From the NCBI GenBank assembly GCA_021776235.1, contig JAJFGG010000069.1, positions 1 through 64,000 on the forward strand: 64,000 bases of DNA. The letters run 5' to 3'. Every line of letters starts with the position of its first letter. The stretch's first letter is position 1. The DNA is from Alphaproteobacteria bacterium. GTDB taxonomy: Bacteria; Pseudomonadota; Alphaproteobacteria; GCA-2731375. The position numbers and the translations under genes were made by a program. The notes under the pieces were generated by a model. That model saw only the letters and a program-made list of their open reading frames with translations. It made no database searches and was not told where the DNA came from. Positions 19,942-36,241 of the stretch are shown here, in pieces.

Positions 19942-20907
19942 CTAAATGCTGTCCGCGCCGTAGTACAGCATCACCTTGTGCTGGGCTTCGGCGAAGAACA
20001 GCCAGCGTTCGACGACGACACCGAAGCTGACGGAGACGGCGGCCAGAGCCGCGGCCAGCAGGCTGACGGGGCCGGCGGAAACTGTTTGAACCAGGACCAG
20101 AACCAGGGGCACCAGGAAGGCCATCAGGTGGGTCAGGCGGCGCAGCTTGGCGGCGTGTTTGCGCGCAATGGCAAAGCCCATTTCCTTCAGCAGATAATTA
20201 TCCTGTACATGGGGCGGGTCCAAGGGGCGCACTGGGGCCCCGCCGGCAATGCCCGCCAACCCGGTCGCCGAGGCCGTGCTGCTGCCGCCCGCGGCGCCGT
20301 CTATGGCCCGCCAGTAAGCGATTTTCAACAGCCAGGCGGCGGCCACCGCGGCAAAGCAAATGGCCCGCGCCAGGGCATGGCCGACAGGGTCGCTGACAAA
20401 GGGCGCCAGCACCGCATTCAGCCATAGGGCCCCCGTGGCCAGGGCCAGGATCAGATAGACCCATGGCACCAAGGGATGATGCCAGCGGGGAATGGCGGCC
20501 AGGGAACGGTATATCATCGCCGTGCTGTAGACGGTGACCATGGACAGCGCCGCCGCCGCCAGGCCGGCCAGGGGCCAAAGACCGTCGTTCCGTTGCAGGA
20601 CCAGCCAGGCAAAGGCGAACAGGGCGGCCGGGCCGTACCCGGCCACGGCCAGAACCCCCTCCCGGGACAGCCAGGAAGAGCGCCATTGGCTGAAGGCCCG
20701 CCAGGCCCGCTCCGGCCGACCCAAATGCGCTGCCGAGGCCAACAGGCCGGCGCTGATCAATGCCACGGCCAGACCCAGGGCGAGCAGGCCAAAGGCCCTC
20801 TCGTCCGGCAGACGGTCCATGGCGCGGAGCACGCCCAGCAGGGCCAGCAGGCCATAGCCCGCCCCCGTGGCGGTGGTCAGGAAAATTACGGAATAGGCTG
20901 GTTGCAT
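19942..20907 (-). CDS. soeC: Membrane anchor subunit, DmsC/SoeC-like
   Basis: A 321-aa protein with about eight transmembrane helices, starting MQPAYSVIFLTTATGAGYGLLALLG and containing LGRPERAWRAFSQWRSSWLSREG, the DmsC-family signature loop (described in pieces). It anchors the molybdoenzyme and passes electrons to the quinone pool. Third gene of the operon. Assignment to SoeC rather than DmsC or PsrC rests on the lack of a Tat signal on the catalytic subunit and on matching subunit sizes. Confidence 0.8.
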   Translation of the reverse strand: MQPAYSVIFLTTATGAGYGLLALLGVLRAMDRLPDERAFGLLALGLAVALISAGLLASAAHLGRPERAWRAFSQWRSSWLSREGVLAVAGYGPAALFAFAWLVLQRNDGLWPLAGLAAAALSMVTVYSTAMIYRSLAAIPRWHHPLVPWVYLILALATGALWLNAVLAPFVSDPVGHALARAICFAAVAAAWLLKIAYWRAIDGAAGGSSTASATGLAGIAGGAPVRPLDPPHVQDNYLLKEMGFAIARKHAAKLRRLTHLMAFLVPLVLVLVQTVSAGPVSLLAAALAAVSVSFGVVVERWLFFAEAQHKVMLYYGADSI

Positions 20908-20933
20908 GTTTCGTCTCTACGCTTAACCCGCGG

Positions 20934-21665
20934 CTACCGGGACAAGGCCCGGTCAATCCAGCCCAGAAAACCGCCGGCGCCGGCCGCCGCGTCCTTCAGG
21001 CTGGCGCCATCACCCACCTTGGCGCTGGGCCGGGGCGGCAAATATCGATTGGTGGGTTTCAGGCCCATTTCCGGCAACAGCTCCACCCCGCCGCGGGCGG
21101 CGGTCAGCTCGGATACCTTTGAATGCGGATCGTTGAAATCACCGAAATGCCGGGCCTTGGCCGGGCAGGCGTTGACACAGGCCGGCTGCCGGTCAACCTC
21201 TTCCAGGTTTTCATTGTAGATGCGGTCGATGCACAAGGTACATTTCTTCATCACGCCGCCGTCGCTATCGAATTCACGGGCGCCATAGGGGCAGGCCCAG
21301 GAACACAGCTTGCAGCCGATACATATGTCTTCATCAACCAGTACGATGCCATCCTCGGTCCGCTTGTAGGAGGCCCCGGTCGGGCAGACGGTGACACAGG
21401 GCGCTTCTTCGCAATGCAGGCACGAGCGCGGGAAGTAGACCGTCCGTCCGTTCCCCTCGGCGCCGGTTTCATAGCCATGCACGCGGTTCAGCCAGACCCC
21501 GTCTACGTCCTTGCCATAAGGATCGGCATCGGGCAGGGGCGCGTGATAGCCGGTGGTGTTCCATTCCTTGCAACTTACGGCGCAGGCATGGCAGCCGACG
21601 CAGGTATCCAGATCGATCACCAGGCCAAGGCGTTTTGCCGGCGCTTGTTTTGGTAACGAGGTCAT
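20934..21665 (-). CDS. soeB: Four-cluster 4Fe-4S ferredoxin subunit, DmsB/SoeB-like
   Basis: A 243-aa iron-sulfur electron-transfer subunit with four cysteine clusters: CVGCHACAVSC, CLHCEEAPCVTVCP, CIGCKLCSWACP and CTLCIDR plus CVNACP. It links the molybdenum subunit to the membrane anchor. Its ATG overlaps the stop of the catalytic gene by four bases (ATGA), and 26 nt separate it from the anchor gene. Confidence 0.88.
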   Translation of the reverse strand: MTSLPKQAPAKRLGLVIDLDTCVGCHACAVSCKEWNTTGYHAPLPDADPYGKDVDGVWLNRVHGYETGAEGNGRTVYFPRSCLHCEEAPCVTVCPTGASYKRTEDGIVLVDEDICIGCKLCSWACPYGAREFDSDGGVMKKCTLCIDRIYNENLEEVDRQPACVNACPAKARHFGDFNDPHSKVSELTAARGGVELLPEMGLKPTNRYLPPRPSAKVGDGASLKDAAAGAGGFLGWIDRALSR

Positions 21666-24550
21666 GACTTGCCTCCCTTGAACCTGGCGCCATAGCGCAG
21701 CATGGCCGGTCTGGGCGCAACGCCGGGCGGCAACGGCAGGGGCTTGAAGGCGGGCTCGGACAGCCCGGCCCCGGCCGGCGCCCTTGATATGCGCACCCGC
21801 AGGTCGAACCAGGCCGCCTGGCCGGTGATGGGATCGGCGTTGGGCAGACGTTCGCCATTGCCATCGGGGGGCAGCAGATCCTCGATCAGGTGGTTAAGCA
21901 GGAAGCCCTTTTCGGCTTCCGGTGCGTCCGCCGCCAGGTTCCAGGCGCCGGACCGTTTGCCGATGGCGTTCCAGGTCCAGACCGTGCGCTCGTTGACCCC
22001 GGCCATGACCCGCACCTGGGCCTTGATGCGGCCATGGCGGCTTTCCAGATAGGCCCAGCCATCGTCCTCGATGCCCTGCTCGCGCGCCACGCTTTCGGAA
22101 ATATACAGCCGGTTGGCCGTGTGGATCTGCCGCAGCCAGGCGTTCTGCGAGCCCCAGGAATGGTACATGGCCGCCGGCCGCTGGCTGATGGCATGCAGGG
22201 GAAAATCCTCCGCCGCCGTGCCATCCACGGCGCTGGGCGGATACCATATGGGCAGGGGATCGAAAAACCTTTCGATCCGCTTGCGCTGCGCCTCGGGCGG
22301 TTGTTGCGCGCCCACGCCGCGCGCGGCCAGGCGAAAACGCTGCAGGGCCTCGGTATAGAGTTGCAGGACCACTGGCTGCGCCGCGCCGATGAAGCCCATC
22401 TTCACGGCATAGTCAAGATAGTCCCGGTTGGCGTGTTTGAAATAGCGTTGCTCCGGCGCCAGCTCGTCCTGCCAGAAACACTGGTTTTCCACATAGCGGT
22501 CAAGCTGCGCCGGGTTGACCGCGCCCTGGCCATGGCTATCACCGTCGGCGCCGCGCCAGCCCGCCAGCGAGCCGACCCCGGGGCTGCGTTCGTGGTTCGC
22601 CAGATAGTCGGGATAGCCGCCGGGATAGCGCGCCGTGCCGGCCTCGTTCAGCAGACCCGGCAGGCCCAGCCGGACGCCCAGGTCCAACAGCACATCCTGA
22701 AACGGGCGGACGTCGCGATTTGGCGTCAGGACCGGCTGGCGGATCGCGTCCGCCGGCCCGTCGGCGCTGGAGATCGGGCGGTCCAGCATGGAGACGCAGT
22801 CCCAACGCTCAAGATAGGTGGTGTCCGGCAGGATCAGATCCGCATAGGCCACGGTCTCGGAATAAAAGGCGTCGGAATAGATGAAATGCGGGATCTTGTA
22901 TTCGCCGCTGTCGGGATTCTTGTCCGTCAGCATGGCGATGGCATCGGAGGTGTTCATGGACGAATTCCAGGCCATGTTGGCCATGTACATGAACAGGGTG
23001 TCGATGGGATAAGGATCGCCGCGCCAGGCGTTGGCGATCACCGTATGCATCATGCCGTGGGCCGACATGGGCGCGTCCCAGGAGAACGCATGATCGATGC
23101 GGCAGGGCGCGCCATTGGCCTCGACCAAAAGATCATCCGGCCCCTGGGGAAAGCCCAGGGGCGGTCCGCCCAGGGGCTGGCCCGGCACCACATCGCCCGG
23201 CTTGCCGGCGGGTTTCAGCCCCGGCGGCGCGGGTTTCGGAAACGGCGGCTTGTAGCGGAAGCCCCCGGGCACATCGATACTGCCCAGCAGCATTTGCAGC
23301 AAATGCAGGCTGCGGCAGGTTTGAAAGCCGTTGGCATGGGCCGAGATGCCGCGCATGGCATGAATGGCCACCGGCCGGCCGATCATCTGTTCCTGCCGGC
23401 GCCCGGCCCAGTCGGTCCAGGGCACGTTCAGTACCACTTCCTCGGCGAAGGCGGCATGGGCCAATTCGCCTGCGATCCGCCGTATGCTTTCCGCCGAAAT
23501 GCCGGTCTGGTCCGCCACCGCGTCGGGGCCGTATTGCCCATCCAGATATCGCGCGGCCAACAGATGAAACACCGGCACCGCGGAGCGTCCGTCGGGCAGG
23601 GTGACCCGGTCCTTCAGGGCGGGGGCAATGCCGGCCTCCAGGGCGTTGACCGCCGTGTCCTTGACGCTGTCCCAACACAGGGGGTTGCCGTCCCCGTCGC
23701 GGGCGAACAGGCCGTCGTCATCGGCGCCGGGATCCTCGATCACCAGCCAGGGCGCGTTGGTGTAACGGGCCAGATAGTCCAGGTCGACCTTGCCCGCGCG
23801 CAGCAGTTCATGCACCAGGGCCAGGACCAGCAGGCCATCGCTGCCCGGCGTAACGGCCAGCCATTCGTCGGCGATGGCGGCATAGCCCGTACGCACCGGG
23901 TTCACGGCGACGTACTTGGCGCCCCGTTCCTTCAGCTTCGCCAGGCCGGTCTTGATGGGGTTGGAATCGTGGTCTTCCGCGACCCCGAACATCATGAAAT
24001 AGCGGCAATGCTCCCAATCGGGTTCGCCGAACTCCCAGAACGAGCCGCCGATGGTATAGAGCCCCGCCGCCGCCATGTTGACCGAGCAAAAGCCGCCGTG
24101 GGCCGCATGATTGGGGGTGCCGAACTGGCTGGCCCACCAGCCCGTCAGGGCCTGGCTTTGATCCCGGCCGGTGAAAAAGGCCAGTTTGCGCGGGTCCTCC
24201 TTGCGGATCGGATCCAGCCACGACGTGGCCAGGTCCAGGGCCTCGTCCCAGCCGATGGCGCGGAATTCGCCGCTGCCCCGCTCCCCCACCCGCAGCAGGG
24301 GCTGCGACAGGCGGGCCGGCGAATGATGCTGCATGATCCCGGCCGAACCCTTGGCGCACAGGACGCCGCGGTTGACCGGATGGTCCCGGTTGCCTTCGAT
24401 ATAGCGCAACTCGCCATCGCGCAGATGCACCTTGATGCCGCAACGGCAGGCGCACATGTAGCAGGTGGTGTATTTGACTTCGTCCGATACGCTTGGTGAC
24501 AGATCAACCCGCTCGGCGTCGTGGGCCGCGTCCGCATCTACAATCGTCAT
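21662..24550 (-). CDS. soeA: Molybdopterin oxidoreductase catalytic subunit, probable sulfite dehydrogenase SoeA
   Basis: A 962-aa DMSO-reductase-superfamily enzyme: N-terminal 4Fe-4S motif at C30, C33, C37 and C65, a putative Mo-ligand Cys155 in HGGFCSVNM, and a C-terminal molybdopterin dinucleotide domain (RLYISESVAREQGI, AHGRIKAQVR-like). There is no signal peptide, so it faces the cytoplasm. Absence of a Tat signal plus the A-B-C gene order and sizes match SoeABC, which oxidises sulfite to sulfate. Polysulfide/thiosulfate or DMSO reductase relatives are alternatives. Confidence 0.8.
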   Translation of the reverse strand: MTIVDADAAHDAERVDLSPSVSDEVKYTTCYMCACRCGIKVHLRDGELRYIEGNRDHPVNRGVLCAKGSAGIMQHHSPARLSQPLLRVGERGSGEFRAIGWDEALDLATSWLDPIRKEDPRKLAFFTGRDQSQALTGWWASQFGTPNHAAHGGFCSVNMAAAGLYTIGGSFWEFGEPDWEHCRYFMMFGVAEDHDSNPIKTGLAKLKERGAKYVAVNPVRTGYAAIADEWLAVTPGSDGLLVLALVHELLRAGKVDLDYLARYTNAPWLVIEDPGADDDGLFARDGDGNPLCWDSVKDTAVNALEAGIAPALKDRVTLPDGRSAVPVFHLLAARYLDGQYGPDAVADQTGISAESIRRIAGELAHAAFAEEVVLNVPWTDWAGRRQEQMIGRPVAIHAMRGISAHANGFQTCRSLHLLQMLLGSIDVPGGFRYKPPFPKPAPPGLKPAGKPGDVVPGQPLGGPPLGFPQGPDDLLVEANGAPCRIDHAFSWDAPMSAHGMMHTVIANAWRGDPYPIDTLFMYMANMAWNSSMNTSDAIAMLTDKNPDSGEYKIPHFIYSDAFYSETVAYADLILPDTTYLERWDCVSMLDRPISSADGPADAIRQPVLTPNRDVRPFQDVLLDLGVRLGLPGLLNEAGTARYPGGYPDYLANHERSPGVGSLAGWRGADGDSHGQGAVNPAQLDRYVENQCFWQDELAPEQRYFKHANRDYLDYAVKMGFIGAAQPVVLQLYTEALQRFRLAARGVGAQQPPEAQRKRIERFFDPLPIWYPPSAVDGTAAEDFPLHAISQRPAAMYHSWGSQNAWLRQIHTANRLYISESVAREQGIEDDGWAYLESRHGRIKAQVRVMAGVNERTVWTWNAIGKRSGAWNLAADAPEAEKGFLLNHLIEDLLPPDGNGERLPNADPITGQAAWFDLRVRISRAPAGAGLSEPAFKPLPLPPGVAPRPAMLRYGARFKGGKS

Positions 24551-29285: not shown

Positions 29286-29300
29286 GCCGCCTCAGGCGGC
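29286..29300 (-). terminator. Short stem spanning the carotenoid oxygenase stop codon
   Basis: GCCGCC-TGA-GGCGGC forms a tight 6-bp hairpin whose loop is the TGA stop, followed on the minus strand by ATTTAT. It is weak as an intrinsic terminator because no continuous T-run follows. Confidence 0.3.
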
Positions 29301-30647
29301 CGGGATCCAGTTGCCGTGGAAGCCGAAGGGGACGCGGACGGGCAGGTGGATTTTTGCTACCGGCGGGGCCGAGAAATCCTGGGCATCGATGATCCGCACG
29401 TGGCTTTTGCCGCTGCCGCCGTCATAGACCACCGATAGGACATAACCCTCGTCCTCGCCCGCGCCGGCGGGGACGAAGACGCCCTCGCTGGCGGCGCCGT
29501 CCGGGCCCACGTCGTGCGCCGTCATGCTGCGCTGTTCCAGGTCATGTTTGAGCAGGTTGCCGGGGCCCACGCCCATGCCGAAACTCACCGTATAGCCATA
29601 GCGGTGGGGATGGCATTCCACCCTGGGGTCGACCCGGGGGAATTCCTGGCCCAGGCCGCTGATAATTTCGCTCGTGACCCGCTCCTTGGCGGGATCGATG
29701 GTCCAGCGTTCCAGGCGGGTCTCGCCGCCGCCTTCCAACTGGCCCTGTACGAAGGTGCGGTCATGGCGCACCACGTCGAAAATGATCTCGTCGCCAGCGT
29801 CATAGGCATTCAGGGGATGGTAGACATAACAGGGATCGATCTCGATCCATTGCACCTGGTCCGTGGTGGCGGCCCGGGGCAGGATGCCCAGACGGGCCGG
29901 CATGTCGTCGCGCCAATGGAACGGCAGCCCCTTGCCGCTGAGGGCCATTTCCAGATTGAAGGCCACCGGCAGATCCATGAAGATGACCCGGCTCGCCGTG
30001 ACGCCGAAGTCATGCATCATGGTCGGGATGGGCTTCGCGATCTCGACCGTGCGCAGCAGTTTGCCGGCCCGGTCGGCGACGTGATAACGCAGGCTGATGG
30101 GGCCGAAATCATAGCCGAAGAAGACCAGTTCGCCGTTCGCGGCATCGATCTTCGGATGCGCCGTCATGTTGCTGCGCAGGGCGCCCGCGAAATCATGTTG
30201 GCCGATGGTATTCAATTCGCCATCCAGTTGCCATGGCAGCCCGACCTCCGGCAAGGCCAGGATGCGGCCGCCGTGGCCGATCACGTTGACGCTGCCCGAG
30301 CCCTGCGGCATGGGCTGGTGCGGGCTGATGGGTGCTTTCGTCAGACCCAGCAGCGCCTCGACCTGGGCCGTCCGGACCCAGCGGTTGCGATAGACCTGGG
30401 CGCCGCCGCCGGCAATGGTGATGCCGTGCACCATGCCATCGCCCGTGAACCAGTGATGGCCGGGTCCGGGGGCGATGGGGTTCGGTCCGTCGCGCAGCAG
30501 GGCGCCGTTCAGTTCGGGCGGTATGGTGCCCTCGACCACAAGGTCATGGGCCGTGGTCTCCACTTCGACTGGCGCGAAATTGCCTTGCAGTACCGGATTG
30601 TCTTCCAGAGCAACGGCGGCGCCCTCGATAGGTTGGCTCTGTGTCAT
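29292..30647 (-). CDS. Carotenoid oxygenase (RPE65/lignostilbene dioxygenase family)
   Basis: A 451-aa non-haem iron dioxygenase that cleaves double bonds in carotenoids, stilbenes or related compounds. The four iron-binding His fall in the expected places: MTAHPKID, MMHDFGVT, CHPHRYG or YHPLNAYD, and the C-terminal FGFHGNW. GNGALLRDGPNP-like ELNGALLRDGPNP near the N-terminus is also diagnostic. No carotenoid synthesis genes are in the window, so an aromatic or dietary-type substrate is as likely. Confidence 0.92.
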   Translation of the reverse strand: MTQSQPIEGAAVALEDNPVLQGNFAPVEVETTAHDLVVEGTIPPELNGALLRDGPNPIAPGPGHHWFTGDGMVHGITIAGGGAQVYRNRWVRTAQVEALLGLTKAPISPHQPMPQGSGSVNVIGHGGRILALPEVGLPWQLDGELNTIGQHDFAGALRSNMTAHPKIDAANGELVFFGYDFGPISLRYHVADRAGKLLRTVEIAKPIPTMMHDFGVTASRVIFMDLPVAFNLEMALSGKGLPFHWRDDMPARLGILPRAATTDQVQWIEIDPCYVYHPLNAYDAGDEIIFDVVRHDRTFVQGQLEGGGETRLERWTIDPAKERVTSEIISGLGQEFPRVDPRVECHPHRYGYTVSFGMGVGPGNLLKHDLEQRSMTAHDVGPDGAASEGVFVPAGAGEDEGYVLSVVYDGGSGKSHVRIIDAQDFSAPPVAKIHLPVRVPFGFHGNWIPAA

Positions 30648-30694: not shown

Positions 30695-31969
30695 CTAGCG
30701 CCGCCGTATATGCGGCCAGATCAGGCCGGCCAGAAGCAGGGCGGCCAGGCCTTCGCAGGCCATGATGCTGACGGCGGCGGCGCCGCCAAACCAATCGGCC
30801 AACAGGCCCACCTGCAATATGCCCAGGGGGTTGACCCCGATACAGACCGCCAGCACACCCATCAACCGGCCGCGCATTTCCGGCGGCGCGGCGGTAAAGA
30901 CAATGGTGCTTTGCATGGCGGCGAAACCGGCGACGCCCAGGCCGCTGAGAAACAGAAAGCCCAGTGACAGGGGGTACCATTGGGAGTGCGAAAAGGCGAA
31001 AACGGCGCAAAGAAAAACCACGGAGCCATAGAAATAGACCCGTGTGAAATGCCGCGGCCGGGCAAAGTTGGCGATCACCACGGCGCCCAGCAAGGCGCCG
31101 GTGGCATCGGCCGAGAGCAGCAGGCCCGTGGCGACCGCGTCCTGGCCCAGAACCTCGGCCCCGATCACCGGCACCATGGCGCCATAGGGGAAGCCGAACA
31201 GGTTGATCACCACGGTCACGAACAGGGTGCCCATGACCCGCGGGTCGGAGCGGATATAGCGCAGGCCCTCGACGATCTGCGCCAGCATGCGCGGCGCGGC
31301 GCCGTCGCGTCCCGCGGCCCGATAGCGGGCCCCCCAGACCAGCCAAAAGGCCAGGCTGAACAACAGGGCGCCCAGAACATAGACCCCCGGCAGGCCAAAG
31401 GCCTGTAATACCAGACCGCCCAGGATCGGCCCGACCAGGCGCATGCAATGGTTGGTGGCGCTGTCCAGGCTCAGGGCGACGCCGGCCCCGCCGGTACCGA
31501 CCTTGTCGGCGGCGATGATGCCCAGCATGGTGCGCCGGACCGGAAACTCCAGGGTACCGTAAATGCCCGAGGCAAAGGCGCCCAGCGCCACGTGCCATAA
31601 TTCGATCCGCCCGGTCAGGGTCAGAAAGGCCAGAACCCCCGAGATCAAGGCCAGCAGAGCCAGGCCCCACAACAACATCAGGCGGCGGTCGAAACGGTCC
31701 GCAATGGCGCCGGTAAAGGCGCTGAACAACAGCATGGGCAGCGAGCGCGCCATGGTCAGCAGGGCCACCATCAGGGCCGAACCCGTGGCCTCGAAAGTGA
31801 AAACACCGATGGCCAGCATTTCCAGCCAGCGCATCACCCAACCTAACGCGCCGGCCAGCCAGATGCGGCGGAAATCCCGGTCGCGGATCAGCGTTCGCGG
31901 CGTGATCCGGCTCTGGGCGGTTGGCCCGGCCGCCGCTTCGGCGGCTACCTTGCCATCAGTTTCGTGCAA
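30695..31969 (-). CDS. MFS transporter (EntS-like MFS_3 type)
   Basis: A 424-aa, twelve-helix major facilitator. Motifs: FRRIWLAGALGWVMRWLEM at the N-terminus, loop 2-3 GAIADRFDRRLML, and RTMLGIIAADKVG in the central region. It is paralogous to the protein at 53997-55202. The only in-frame start near the N-terminus is TTG at 31969, with GGAGG two bases upstream; the gene begins nine bases after the selenoprotein stop, so cotranscription is likely. Substrate unknown. Confidence 0.85.
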   Translation of the reverse strand: MHETDGKVAAEAAAGPTAQSRITPRTLIRDRDFRRIWLAGALGWVMRWLEMLAIGVFTFEATGSALMVALLTMARSLPMLLFSAFTGAIADRFDRRLMLLWGLALLALISGVLAFLTLTGRIELWHVALGAFASGIYGTLEFPVRRTMLGIIAADKVGTGGAGVALSLDSATNHCMRLVGPILGGLVLQAFGLPGVYVLGALLFSLAFWLVWGARYRAAGRDGAAPRMLAQIVEGLRYIRSDPRVMGTLFVTVVINLFGFPYGAMVPVIGAEVLGQDAVATGLLLSADATGALLGAVVIANFARPRHFTRVYFYGSVVFLCAVFAFSHSQWYPLSLGFLFLSGLGVAGFAAMQSTIVFTAAPPEMRGRLMGVLAVCIGVNPLGILQVGLLADWFGGAAAVSIMACEGLAALLLAGLIWPHIRRR

Positions 31970-31978
31970 AACCTCCGC

Positions 31979-32851
31979 TTAGCCGCCCGCCGCCGCTTCG
32001 GCCAAGTGGCGGTCTTCTTCCCGTTGGTAGCGTACGGTCATGTCGCGGGGCTGGCGCACATCGTCGGCCGACTGGTCCGCCGCGGCGGCCTTCCAGGCCT
32101 CGCCGCCGGGCCAGGTTTGTGCCAGGGGAACGATTTCGCCAGGGCTTTGCAGGCTTTCGAAGGCCGCCATGGCCTGCCGGGCGATGGCCAGCTGCTGCTC
32201 CGGTTCAAAGGCCGGGCCGCCGCCATGGCCGAGGGGGAAATCCATGAACACGGCCCGCGGCGGCCAGCCGAACTTGACGATATCCAGGGCCGTGCCCACG
32301 CACAGGGTCGGCATGCCGCGTTCTTCCAGGTAACGTGCGATCAGACACACGGTCTGATGACATACCGGTCACAACGGCACCAGATAGGCCACATCGACGC
32401 CTTCCGCCGCAAAGGCCGCGTGCATGGCCGGGGCCAGTTCCTCCTCGACCCGCCGTTTGGAATAGACCGCGCCCATGCAGGAGAAAAAATTGTCCGCGAC
32501 GCCGCCGATCACGCCTTCAGCCGCCAGTTGCCGCAGCGGTTCCATGGGGAAGGCGCAATTGGCGTCTTCCCGGGCATCCGGCAGATAGTTTTCGGTCAGA
32601 TGGGAAAAGCGCAAATCGCCGACCGGCGTGTCCGACGGTATGACCCGGTGCGAGGCATCGTCCTTGTAGAAATAGGCGACCTGTCCGGCCACATAGGTGC
32701 CGGCGGTGGACATCATGCCGACACGGCAGTCCGCTAGCGGCTTGGCCAGCGGCGTCCAGGGCGGCGGCGCGCTCGCCTGGTGCCAGCCATAGGGGGTATA
32801 GCCCAACTTGCTGTACTTCTCCCGAATGGTTTTCATATATTCAATTGGCAT
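31979..32851 (-). CDS. Selenoprotein, GrdB-like (in-frame UGA = selenocysteine 161)
   Basis: Reading from ATG 32851 (AAAGGAG upstream), the frame meets TGA at 32369-32371 and continues in the same frame to TAA at 31979, giving 290 residues. The context around the codon is VPL-U-PVCHQTVC, a U-x-x-C redox motif like that of glycine/sarcosine/betaine reductase protein B. The downstream part stays coding (RYLEERGMPTLCVGTALD, FMDFPLGHGGGP). A SECIS-like hairpin starts 10 nt after the UGA. No grdA or other reductase genes are nearby, so the reaction is unknown; a redox role is inferred. Placed between an acyl-CoA dehydrogenase and an MFS gene. Confidence 0.85.
32329..32366 (-). promoter_or_regulatory. 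SECIS-like hairpin
   Basis: On the mRNA, AUCAGAC (32358-32352) pairs perfectly with GUCUGAU (32346-32340) around a five-base loop CGUGU, which has a G at its second position. A lower GGUA/UACC pairing (32366-32363 with 32332-32329) can extend it. The apical loop begins 17 nt after the UGA, within the range known for bacterial SECIS elements recognised by SelB. Confidence 0.7.
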
Positions 32852-32910: not shown

Positions 32911-34053
32911 TCAACCGCGCGCAAGAGCGCGGGAAATAACCAGCTTCTGGATATCGTTGGTGCCTTCGTAAATGCGGTGGACGCGCACGTCGCGGAGGAT
33001 CCTGGCGACCGGGTAATCTTCCAGATAGCCGTTGCCGCCAAAGGTCTGCAACGCGGCAGAGGCCACTTTCTCCGCCATGTCCGAGGCGAACAGCTTGGCC
33101 ATGGAGGCTTCTTTCAGGCAGGGCGCGCCGATGTCCAGAAGCTGCGCCGCATGCAGGTACATTTGCCGCCCGGCCTCGATCCCGGTCGCCATATCCGCCA
33201 GGCGAAAGGCTACCGCCTGGTGCTCGAAGATCGGTTTGCCAAAGGCCTGGCGTTCCTGGGCGTAGGCCAGGGCCGCTTCATAGGCCGCCCGCGCCCCGCC
33301 CACCGCCTGGGCCGCCACGGCGATGCGGCCGACGGACAGGTTGGCCAGGGCAATGCCCAGGCCGCGGCCCTCGGCGCCCAGCAGGTCGCCGGCCGGTACC
33401 GCCATATCTTCGAGGGCGATGGCGCAGGTATCATTGCTGCGATGGCCCAGCTTGGCCTCTTCCCGCAGCACCTTGTAGCCGGGATTGTCCGTCGGCGTCA
33501 GAAAGGCCGAGATACCCCGCTTGCCCGCCGCCGGATCGGTAACGGCGATGATCATGGCGACACCGGCCCGCCGCCCCGCCGTGATGAACTGTTTCTGGCC
33601 GTTCAGCACGAAATGATCGCCCCCGGACTTGCTGCGGCTGGCCCGGGTCAGGATGGCCGCGGCGTCGGATCCCGTGTGGGGTTCCGTCAAGAGAAATGCG
33701 CCGATCATCTCGCCCCTGGTCATGCTGGGGAAATACCGCTGCGTCTGCGCCTCGGTTCCGTGCTCGTTCAGGGCCGCCATGACCGGTGAATTGTTGGCCG
33801 CCATCAGGTTGGCGATGCCGCCGTCGGCGGCGGAAACCTCCTCCATGGCGATGACGTAGGAGACGAAATCGGCCCCGGCGCCGCCCCATTCAGGGCCGAT
33901 ACAGATGCCCATCAGGCCGGCCTGGCCCATCTTGCGCATCAGCTCGGGGGATGCGCCGGTCTTCTCCCATTGCCTGACGTTGGGCAGGATTTCCGTCTGG
34001 GCAAAGCGCCGCGCGGTCTCCTGGATCAGCCGTTGCTCTTCGCTTAATTGCAT
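32911..34053 (-). CDS. Acyl-CoA dehydrogenase
   Basis: A 380-aa FAD enzyme that oxidises acyl-CoA to trans-2-enoyl-CoA and hands electrons to ETF (encoded at 1356-3052). FAD/substrate motifs LLTEPHTGSDAA and FITAGRRAG are present, and the catalytic-base region HRIYEGTNDIQ contains the expected Glu. Length and order are standard for short/medium-chain enzymes. It lies 59 nt upstream of the selenoprotein start on the same strand, so the two may be coexpressed. Confidence 0.95.
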   Translation of the reverse strand: MQLSEEQRLIQETARRFAQTEILPNVRQWEKTGASPELMRKMGQAGLMGICIGPEWGGAGADFVSYVIAMEEVSAADGGIANLMAANNSPVMAALNEHGTEAQTQRYFPSMTRGEMIGAFLLTEPHTGSDAAAILTRASRSKSGGDHFVLNGQKQFITAGRRAGVAMIIAVTDPAAGKRGISAFLTPTDNPGYKVLREEAKLGHRSNDTCAIALEDMAVPAGDLLGAEGRGLGIALANLSVGRIAVAAQAVGGARAAYEAALAYAQERQAFGKPIFEHQAVAFRLADMATGIEAGRQMYLHAAQLLDIGAPCLKEASMAKLFASDMAEKVASAALQTFGGNGYLEDYPVARILRDVRVHRIYEGTNDIQKLVISRALARG

Positions 34054-34151: not shown

Positions 34152-34952
34152 CTATTTGGGCGACCATTTCGTGACCAACCGGGGCATTGTCTCGCCGGCA
34201 ACGGAAACCGCTTCGACCCGCTCGTCAAAGAAACACAGAAAATCCTTGATGCGGGCCGCCTCGGCTACCGGCGCGGGATAGCTCCAGACCAGATCCTCGA
34301 AGCATTCTTCGCCCAGGTTCAGGTGCCAATATTCGGCCGTACCCTTGTAGGGGCAACTGCTGCGCCGCTCGGATGGCTGCAACAGGTCCATCCGGACATC
34401 CTCTTTCGGCAGATAATAGCGGGTGGGCAGGCCGGTCTCGAACAGCATCCTGGCCCGGCTGCTTTCAGCCACTGTCTGGCCCCCTACGGTGATGTGCACC
34501 GGCCGGGACGAGTCCAGAATATCCAGGCGCACACGGGGGTCTCTGGCGTGGACGAAAACCTCCTCGTCCTCCTCGAACCAATGATCCATGCGGTCCCAGT
34601 AAAAGGCCACATGATCCTTGAGCTCGGCGGTTTCCGGGTACGGCGTGGGATAGGTCCAGACCGCGTTCTCGGCCGCCCTGTCGCCCACCTGCACGGTCCA
34701 ATAGGCGGCGTCGCCCTTAAAGGGGCAATGGGTCGAATGCTCCGTTGTCTGCAACAAGTCCTGGCGCACATCGTCGATTGGAAAGTAGTAAACCGGAATG
34801 TGCTTGCTTTCGACCAGATATTGCGCCCGGGTGCTATCCGCCACGGTCTCGCCATTGAAGACGACCCGCAGGCGCTTCGGGCAGGGCTCGAAATGGACAT
34901 CGTAGCCCGGGTGCTTGTCATAAAGCGATGGTCGTTGCTGGGTATCTGTCAT
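34152..34952 (-). CDS. Tandem DUF427 domain protein
   Basis: A 266-aa protein made of two DUF427 units. Each has G-x-TVA(D/E)S(T/S)RA, a PxYYxPxxDVRxDLLQ stretch, a C-P-(F/Y)-K-G motif (HCPFKG and SCPYKG), a W-TYP/W-SYP segment and a closing aromatic run. The repeated Cys-Pro-x-Lys-Gly is the family hallmark; function is unknown. ATG 34952 follows AGGGAGA; the longer frame adds 40 residues and is unlikely. Confidence 0.88.
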   Translation of the reverse strand: MTDTQQRPSLYDKHPGYDVHFEPCPKRLRVVFNGETVADSTRAQYLVESKHIPVYYFPIDDVRQDLLQTTEHSTHCPFKGDAAYWTVQVGDRAAENAVWTYPTPYPETAELKDHVAFYWDRMDHWFEEDEEVFVHARDPRVRLDILDSSRPVHITVGGQTVAESSRARMLFETGLPTRYYLPKEDVRMDLLQPSERRSSCPYKGTAEYWHLNLGEECFEDLVWSYPAPVAEAARIKDFLCFFDERVEAVSVAGETMPRLVTKWSPK

Positions 34953-35071
34953 GCTTTGTCTCCCTGGCCCTATCATCGCTCTGTTGCGGTTTCGGCGCAA
35001 CTTGCATGGAGTTGTCGCCTTGATGCCATTAAACTCATCGCAAATTACGCATTCATGCAGGGAAGCTGACA

Positions 35072-36241
35072 ATGGGAACGACGATGATTAGGGGGATGCT
35101 CTGGGCCGTGGCGGCGGCACTTTTGGCGACGGCTCCGGCGCGGGCGCAAAGCCCCCTGGCCGATGCCCATATCCACTACAGCCATGACGCCTGGGAGATG
35201 CTGCCGCCGGCCGAGGCCATCAAGGTCCTGCGCCAAGCCGGCCTGAAAAAGGCCTTCGTCTCCTCTTCCAGCGACCAGGGAACGCAGATGCTCCACGCAC
35301 AGGCGCCGGATCTTATTGTCCCTGTCCTGCGGCCCTACCGGCGGCGCGGGGAAACCGGCACCTGGTTCAGGGATGCCAGCGTCGGCGACATGGTGGCGGA
35401 CCTGTTGGCAAAAAACACCTATGCCGGCATCGGCGAATTCCATCTGTTTGGCAAGGACGCCGAGCTTCCCGTGCCCCGGCGCATTGTGCAACTGGCGGCG
35501 AAATACGGGATTTTCCTGCATGCTCATTCCGATGCCGACGCCGTCGAGCGCATTTTCGCGCAGAACCCGGAGGCACGGGTGCTGTGGGCCCATTCCGGTT
35601 TCGAGCCGCCGGAAGCCGTCGCGGTGATGCTGCGCAAGTACAAACACCTGTGGTCGGACCTGGCCTTCCGTTCGGAGCATGCCTCGGACGGAAAGGTGGA
35701 TCCCGCGTGGCGCAAGGTTTTCATGGAGTTTCCCGACCGTTTCATGCTCGGCACCGATACCTACGTCCCGGAGCGCTGGTACTACGTGGTCGAGCAAGCC
35801 GCATGGTCGCGGCGCTGGCTGGCCGATCTTCCCAGGGAGGTTGGCGAGAACATCGCCTACCGCAACGCCGAGGCCCTGGCGAACTGGGCCTTGAAGACAG
35901 ACGCTTCCGCCTGTGCCTCGGGGCAGACAATGGCGAAAGACGGCTATCGTCTGTCCTATCGCTTTGAACCGGCGGCGATCCAGGTTGGCCAGCCCTTCGC
36001 CATGCAGATCGCCGTATGCGCGCCGGACGATCAGCCCTTTACCGGCGAGGTGCGGGTGGGTGCGGCCATGCCGGCGCATGGTCATGGCATGAACTACAAA
36101 CCCACTGTGCAACAGACTGCAGAGGGAAGGTTCCATGCCCAGGGCCTGATGCTGCATATGCGCGGCCATTGGCAGTTCAATTTTGAACTGCTGACCGAGA
36201 CGGGGATCGTTCGCCTGGGCGCCGATCATCGGCAAAAATGA
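35072..36241 (+). CDS. Secreted amidohydrolase with C-terminal YtkA-like domain
   Basis: A 389-aa protein with a signal peptide (cleavage near APARAQ). An amidohydrolase_2-like barrel follows, with H33 and H35 (DAHIH), E122/H124 (GEFHLF), H150-x-H152, H174 (WAHSGF) and D229 (GTDTY) as metal or catalytic residues. From about residue 293 a beta-rich domain with AMPAHGHGMNYKP resembles YtkA/CopC-like periplasmic domains, whose His/Met clusters often bind copper. Its stop overlaps the start of the di-heme enzyme (ATGA). Substrate unknown. Confidence 0.8.
   Translation: MGTTMIRGMLWAVAAALLATAPARAQSPLADAHIHYSHDAWEMLPPAEAIKVLRQAGLKKAFVSSSSDQGTQMLHAQAPDLIVPVLRPYRRRGETGTWFRDASVGDMVADLLAKNTYAGIGEFHLFGKDAELPVPRRIVQLAAKYGIFLHAHSDADAVERIFAQNPEARVLWAHSGFEPPEAVAVMLRKYKHLWSDLAFRSEHASDGKVDPAWRKVFMEFPDRFMLGTDTYVPERWYYVVEQAAWSRRWLADLPREVGENIAYRNAEALANWALKTDASACASGQTMAKDGYRLSYRFEPAAIQVGQPFAMQIAVCAPDDQPFTGEVRVGAAMPAHGHGMNYKPTVQQTAEGRFHAQGLMLHMRGHWQFNFELLTETGIVRLGADHRQK

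Follow-up and report, generated by a model that had tools for sequence, protein, structure and literature searches.

Does a TGA codon in the middle of a reading frame encode selenocysteine (Sec), and if it does, what kind of protein carries it? The question arises in a stretch of 64,000 nucleotides of alphaproteobacterial DNA, which we refer to as the window. A first-pass annotation, made from the letters alone, had described a frame that continues through TGA 32369-32371 into coding-like sequence, with a U-x-x-C site at the TGA and a hairpin behind it. When TGA was translated as U, the frame ran on the minus strand from an ATG at 32851 to a TAA at 31981-31979 with 129 codons past residue 161, and both the read-through and the U-x-x-C site (U-P-V-C, in the context LVPL-U-PVCHQTV) were recovered. 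The features of the gene itself are as follows:

32851 to 31979, minus strand: PrdB-like putative selenoprotein gene, 290 aa with Sec at residue 161, TAA stop included (TGA=U translation, TIGR04483, 80 relatives, dN/dS)
32371-32369, minus strand: UGA predicted to be read as selenocysteine, residue 161 (TGA in 15/80 and TGC/TGT in 65/80 fetched relatives)
32358-32340, minus strand: predicted bacterial SECIS-type hairpin, stem of 7 bp, loop CGUGU, spacer of 10 nt from the UGA (covariation, synonymous null, loop codon)

Gene calling with translation table 11 divides this locus into one ORF of 181 aa and another of 123 aa, which is the split that had been foreseen for a standard caller. The open frame alone is weak evidence for Sec, since 11 out of 1699 TGA codons in the six frames of this G+C-rich window have equally long open flanks. 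The case for Sec rests on comparison: the presence of TGA or a Cys codon at the site, purifying selection, hairpin covariation and the sel genes.

All 80 relatives that were fetched align at codon 161. TGA is kept in 15 of them (49-91% identical), while 65 have TGC or TGT, encoding Cys (34-44% identical). The codon is followed by PVCHQTV or by QVCHQTV/PVCHQTM, and U/C161, C164, H165, Q166 and T167 are invariant in the aligned subset of relatives. Loci of congeneric genomes also have TGA at this position. Against the nine closest relatives (L002-L010), dN/dS was 0.09-0.19 before the UGA codon and 0.07-0.26 after it, values which indicate that purifying selection acts on both halves of the gene. 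The first-pass annotation had suggested a search for Cys homologues at residue 161, and these indeed make up the majority of the relatives; it had also allowed that homologues might all stop at the UGA, which is contradicted by the low downstream dN/dS and by the finding of Cys or TGA in 80/80. A search for relatives on viral contigs found none.

The hairpin was found where it had been claimed, with a 7-bp stem and a five-base loop starting 10 nt after the UGA. Its stem arms are ATCAGAC/GTCTGAT and its loop is CGTGT. To judge it, a stem-specific pairing test was used in place of whole-window minimum free energy (MFE), for which the comparison with synonymous shuffles separated Sec from Cys genes only modestly (p 0.004). 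In 46 Sec genes, a mean of 6.67 of the 7 stem pairs is formed. When the same peptides were recoded with synonymous codons the mean was 4.94, and the observed total was not reached in any of 1000 replicates. All seven pairs are formed in 36/46 Sec genes versus 2/66 Cys genes. The Cys genes lie slightly above their own synonymous null (5.23 vs 4.57 pairs), so part of the stem pairing follows codon preference or ancestry. Among 23 distinct sequences, two-sided changes occur at 5/7 stem pairs, in 36 cells versus 8.3 expected in shuffles; 91.9% of the cells are paired, none of 500 shuffles reached the observed value, and the signal was lost when the partner was shifted by one base. In the loop, valine is encoded by GTG in 45/46 Sec genes versus 8/66 Cys genes. 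In the RNA-fold check that had been proposed, the fold of the single sequence was unremarkable and uninformative (z -1.15); the comparative tests, covariation and the synonymous null, were positive. A search of Rfam around the gene returned nothing above chance. Taken together, the comparisons indicate that a predicted SECIS hairpin is present directly 3' of the UGA.

If the UGA is decoded as Sec, the genome should hold the corresponding machinery, and this check, which the first-pass annotation had also called for, was borne out for the proteins. Contig C166 carries selA (530 bits) next to selB (414 bits, with its neighbours), and selD (382 bits) lies on C46. The tRNA-Sec gene selC was searched for in the 174-contig draft assembly and was not found; two above-cut-off matches to RF01852 were examined as candidates and rejected, since both are tRNA-Ser. 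In other alphaproteobacteria tRNA-Sec is nested in or follows selB (PMC8124441). That arrangement was looked for here and not found: selB on G000:C166 (L132) has no nested tRNA-Sec, unlike the published pattern, and selC is a separate locus in congeners. Because ARAGORN identified a clear tRNA-SeC in all nine congeneric genomes searched (9/9), selC is likely missing owing to an assembly gap. The selD gene of C46 (G000:C46:22266-23192; L090, L133) has one in-frame TGA of its own, so that its product is probably itself a selenoprotein by sequence, and C25 holds another SelD-like gene. On these comparisons the window TGA almost certainly encodes selenocysteine, and we are highly confident that UGA 32371-32369 would be read by SelB and tRNA-Sec with the help of the hairpin. 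The earlier proposal of a real selenoprotein gene with alphaproteobacterial relatives is therefore upheld, to the extent that recurrent TGA, Cys homologues, selection, hairpin and sel genes can speak for it.

The family assignment, in contrast, had to be revised. The protein had been called GrdB-like; among named families it is closest to PrdB, a subunit of D-proline reductase. The best NCBIfam match is PrdB TIGR04483 (131.4 bits, E 3.4e-38) over 217 residues (28-244), below the equivalog cut-off of 300 bits, and this model is matched by 43/43 aligned relatives. The GrdB-type models (TIGR01917, TIGR01918, NF040794, NF040795) score 24.6-29.6 bits versus cut-offs of 602-800, and Pfam GRDB (PF07355) scores 19.4, below its cut-off of 22. 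With clostridial PrdB the window protein shares the UxxC selenocysteine site. With protein B of glycine, sarcosine and betaine reductase (GrdB/GrdF/GrdH) it shares UxxC and, around the Sec site, a weak similarity that covers residues 93-194 or 93-227, but it has 290 aa where theirs have about 435. The UGSC family (seleno)protein NF041046 also has UxxC and is matched by 2/43 relatives at E about 3e-4, whereas the window protein, with its UPVC motif, is not matched. The first-pass annotation had placed the gene apart from the rest of a Grd complex. In agreement with this, the genome has no match to PF04723 (GrdA) or to PF09338 (GrdE/PrdA); both searches lacked a positive control, the latter model having no match among 398 Pseudomonadota either.

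The genes around the selenoprotein gene were identified from Pfam, NCBIfam and comparison with the loci of relatives:

32911..34053, minus strand: acyl-CoA dehydrogenase (ACAD), first gene of a likely operon, 60 bp upstream of the selenoprotein gene (Pfam)
30695..31969, minus strand: MFS transporter of exporter type, following the selenoprotein gene after 10 bp (Pfam MFS_3/MFS_1)
34152..35072, minus strand: protein in which DUF427 (PF04248) occurs twice; its start is uncertain (Pfam, clustering)
19942..24550, minus strand: molybdopterin oxidoreductase set of 962, 243 and 321 aa (ORFs; homologues in L004 annotated Molybdopterin/Fer4_11/DmsC)

An ACAD gene directly precedes the selenoprotein gene, in the same orientation, in the window, L002, L004, L008, L009, L106 and L128, with a gap of 54-68 bp in several relatives of the window clade. 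The best NCBIfam match of the window ACAD is acryloyl-CoA reductase AcrC (351 bits, below cut-off). The MFS gene follows 9-17 bp downstream in the window and in eight relatives (L002, L003, L005-L010). The order ACAD-PrdB-MFS is conserved in the window clade. The DUF427 protein, a more distant neighbour, is also kept in L002, L003, L006 and L010. The link to the DmsABC-like oxidoreductase set is loose: a homologue of the catalytic subunit adjoins the selenoprotein gene in L003-L006 and is 6 kb off in the window; the clustering with the window copy covered the 962-aa subunit. Unlike the prd operon of clostridial PrdB, the neighbourhood formed by ACAD, MFS, DUF427 and RPE65-type genes is of an aerobic catabolic type, and Pfam and NCBIfam searches of the flanking genes revealed no prd neighbours. 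The RPE65-type gene, for a carotenoid cleavage oxygenase, lies at 29292-30647, downstream of the MFS gene.

The window gene is one of nine PrdB-like genes in this genome, each with one in-frame TGA. Ten congeners have 6-11 PrdB-like matches each. Among 398 Pseudomonadota genomes, the present one included, 17 others match and none has more than two, counts which are lower bounds because up to six candidates were scored per genome. In a quick tree with SH-aLRT support, the nine paralogues fall into the window clade, a UxxD clade, a clade of long proteins (380-430 aa) and one that also contains the Cys forms from Bradyrhizobium and others. Across the 66-row tree, which is unrooted and has subsampled Cys rows, at least three switches between Sec and Cys occur. 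In the UxxD Sec clade the motif is UPLDHQTV, with Asp in place of the usual second Cys; it occurs in at least 10 genomes of the same and another family (L107 and L134 on G000 contig C38; also L103-L105, L108-L111, L114 and L131). Two long PrdB-like Sec proteins of about 410 aa have an extra C-terminal region and the motif UPxCTRAV (G000:C140:88205-88783, L136; G000:C50:12395-12976, L138). Beside the other paralogues, ORFs picked by a simple script encode class III CoA transferases, a luciferase-like monooxygenase, a TauD-type dioxygenase, a 2-hydroxyacid dehydrogenase, an amidohydrolase and a glyoxalase-fold protein.

What might such a protein do? An AlphaFold model (pLDDT 86.7, pTM 0.89) predicts a Rossmann-like alpha/beta domain in which residue 161 lies between strand 154-158 and helix 162-177. 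Sec161 would thus sit at the N-terminal end of the helix, with Cys164 and His165 beside it in sequence. A sequence search of solved structures returned none that was credible. Assigning a function from the fold with Foldseek and VIA-align was rejected, as the best Z, 7.9, is no higher than a widespread alpha/beta arrangement would be expected to give.

As the best overall explanation we favour, with reasonable confidence, a stand-alone PrdB-type selenoprotein that carries out a reductive cleavage in a catabolic pathway. The selenolate of Sec161 would attack a small substrate held by the protein, and a C-N, C-S, C-O or C-halogen bond would be cleaved reductively. Cys164 would resolve the selenium intermediate as a selenenyl-sulfide, which a cellular thiol system would re-reduce; as far as this can be tested, no pyruvoyl partner would take part. 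The substrate or product may be an acyl-CoA, handled by the upstream ACAD and moved by the downstream MFS transporter. GrdB and PrdB enzymes work in multi-subunit complexes of fermenting anaerobes, so the transfer of their chemistry to the window protein is an analogy, and for selenolate-driven cleavage with Cys164 as the resolving residue we see the chances as even. Since the UxxD clade lacks the second Cys, a Cys-resolved cycle cannot hold for all paralogues. The eight other Sec paralogues, among different catabolic neighbours, may carry out an equivalent step with substrates of their own. More tentatively, marine bacteria may possess a whole clan of stand-alone PrdB-type selenoenzymes without a pyruvoyl subunit, each in its own catabolic pathway and with varied substrates, including a UxxD form that dropped the resolving cysteine.

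The strongest competitor, which we nevertheless consider unlikely, is a general thiol- or peroxide-type redox enzyme that uses UxxC in the manner of a peroxiredoxin or thioredoxin and cleaves no substrate. A UxxC leading into a helix is often seen in thiol-redox proteins, and GST-like genes (L104/L118, called by eye) and glyoxalase-fold genes lie beside some paralogues. Nonetheless, no thioredoxin-fold match was found, the modelled alpha/beta domain has no clear solved relative, and the protein is kin to the PrdB/GrdB reductases. Nine diverged paralogues in different catabolic neighbourhoods further suggest different substrates. A true D-proline reductase, converting D-proline to 5-aminovalerate with a diverged partner, is much less probable: PrdB is the best family over those 217 residues, but the score is far under the 300-bit cut-off, no PrdA/GrdE-type partner was matched in the genome (in the search without a positive control), prd neighbours are absent and the Sec paralogues diverge deeply. 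That the TGA is a real stop, through sequencing error, pseudogenization or the presence of two separate short genes, is barely credible. The two called ORFs and the draft without selC would fit such a stop, but the TGA is seen again in 15 of the genome records fetched and in congeneric loci, selection extends beyond it, other relatives have Cys at the same codon and the hairpin covaries. Reading of the UGA as another residue such as Trp, whether through an altered genetic code or by suppression, has nothing but the open frame in its favour and is the least plausible of all, given that Cys is the sole replacement in relatives, that the hairpin and sel genes are present and that congeners have tRNA-Sec. 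Sequence error, pseudogene and recoding to another residue were rejected on these grounds.

The gene belongs to a selenoprotein family that is already on record and functionally uncharacterised. In the Sargasso Sea set, PrdB ranked third in abundance among known selenoprotein families, with 42 genes (PMC1088965), and Global Ocean Sampling yielded 235 Sec and 110 Cys forms (PMC2398784); a list of proteobacterial proline-reductase selenoproteins dates from 2006. The metagenomic proteins, matched here by description and not by sequence, share with the window protein UxxC, PrdB/pfam07355 kinship, Sec and Cys forms and a marine origin. Because marine PrdB was already reported as abundant, the novelty implied by the first-pass annotation is weakened. 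The metagenomic forms came from short reads without gene order or copy number. Apparently new are the genome's set of nine Sec paralogues, the UxxD subclade and the conserved ACAD-PrdB-MFS order, for none of which a description was found in the open-licence literature searched. Ordinary annotation splits each PrdB-like gene in two, and thus nine selenoproteins of a single genome stay hidden. Of the selenoprotein families recorded in seawater, PrdB is one of the most abundant, yet the one reaction known for it belongs to clostridial fermentation. Concrete substrate classes are suggested by the conserved operon together with the paralogues, among which Sec, Cys and UxxD forms can be compared as they occur in nature. 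Several of the close relatives (among L002-L010) are metagenome-assembled genomes, whose isolate names (150 m samples, SI072/SI074, Arabian) suggest, as far as names go, a habitat in deep or oxygen-poor water.
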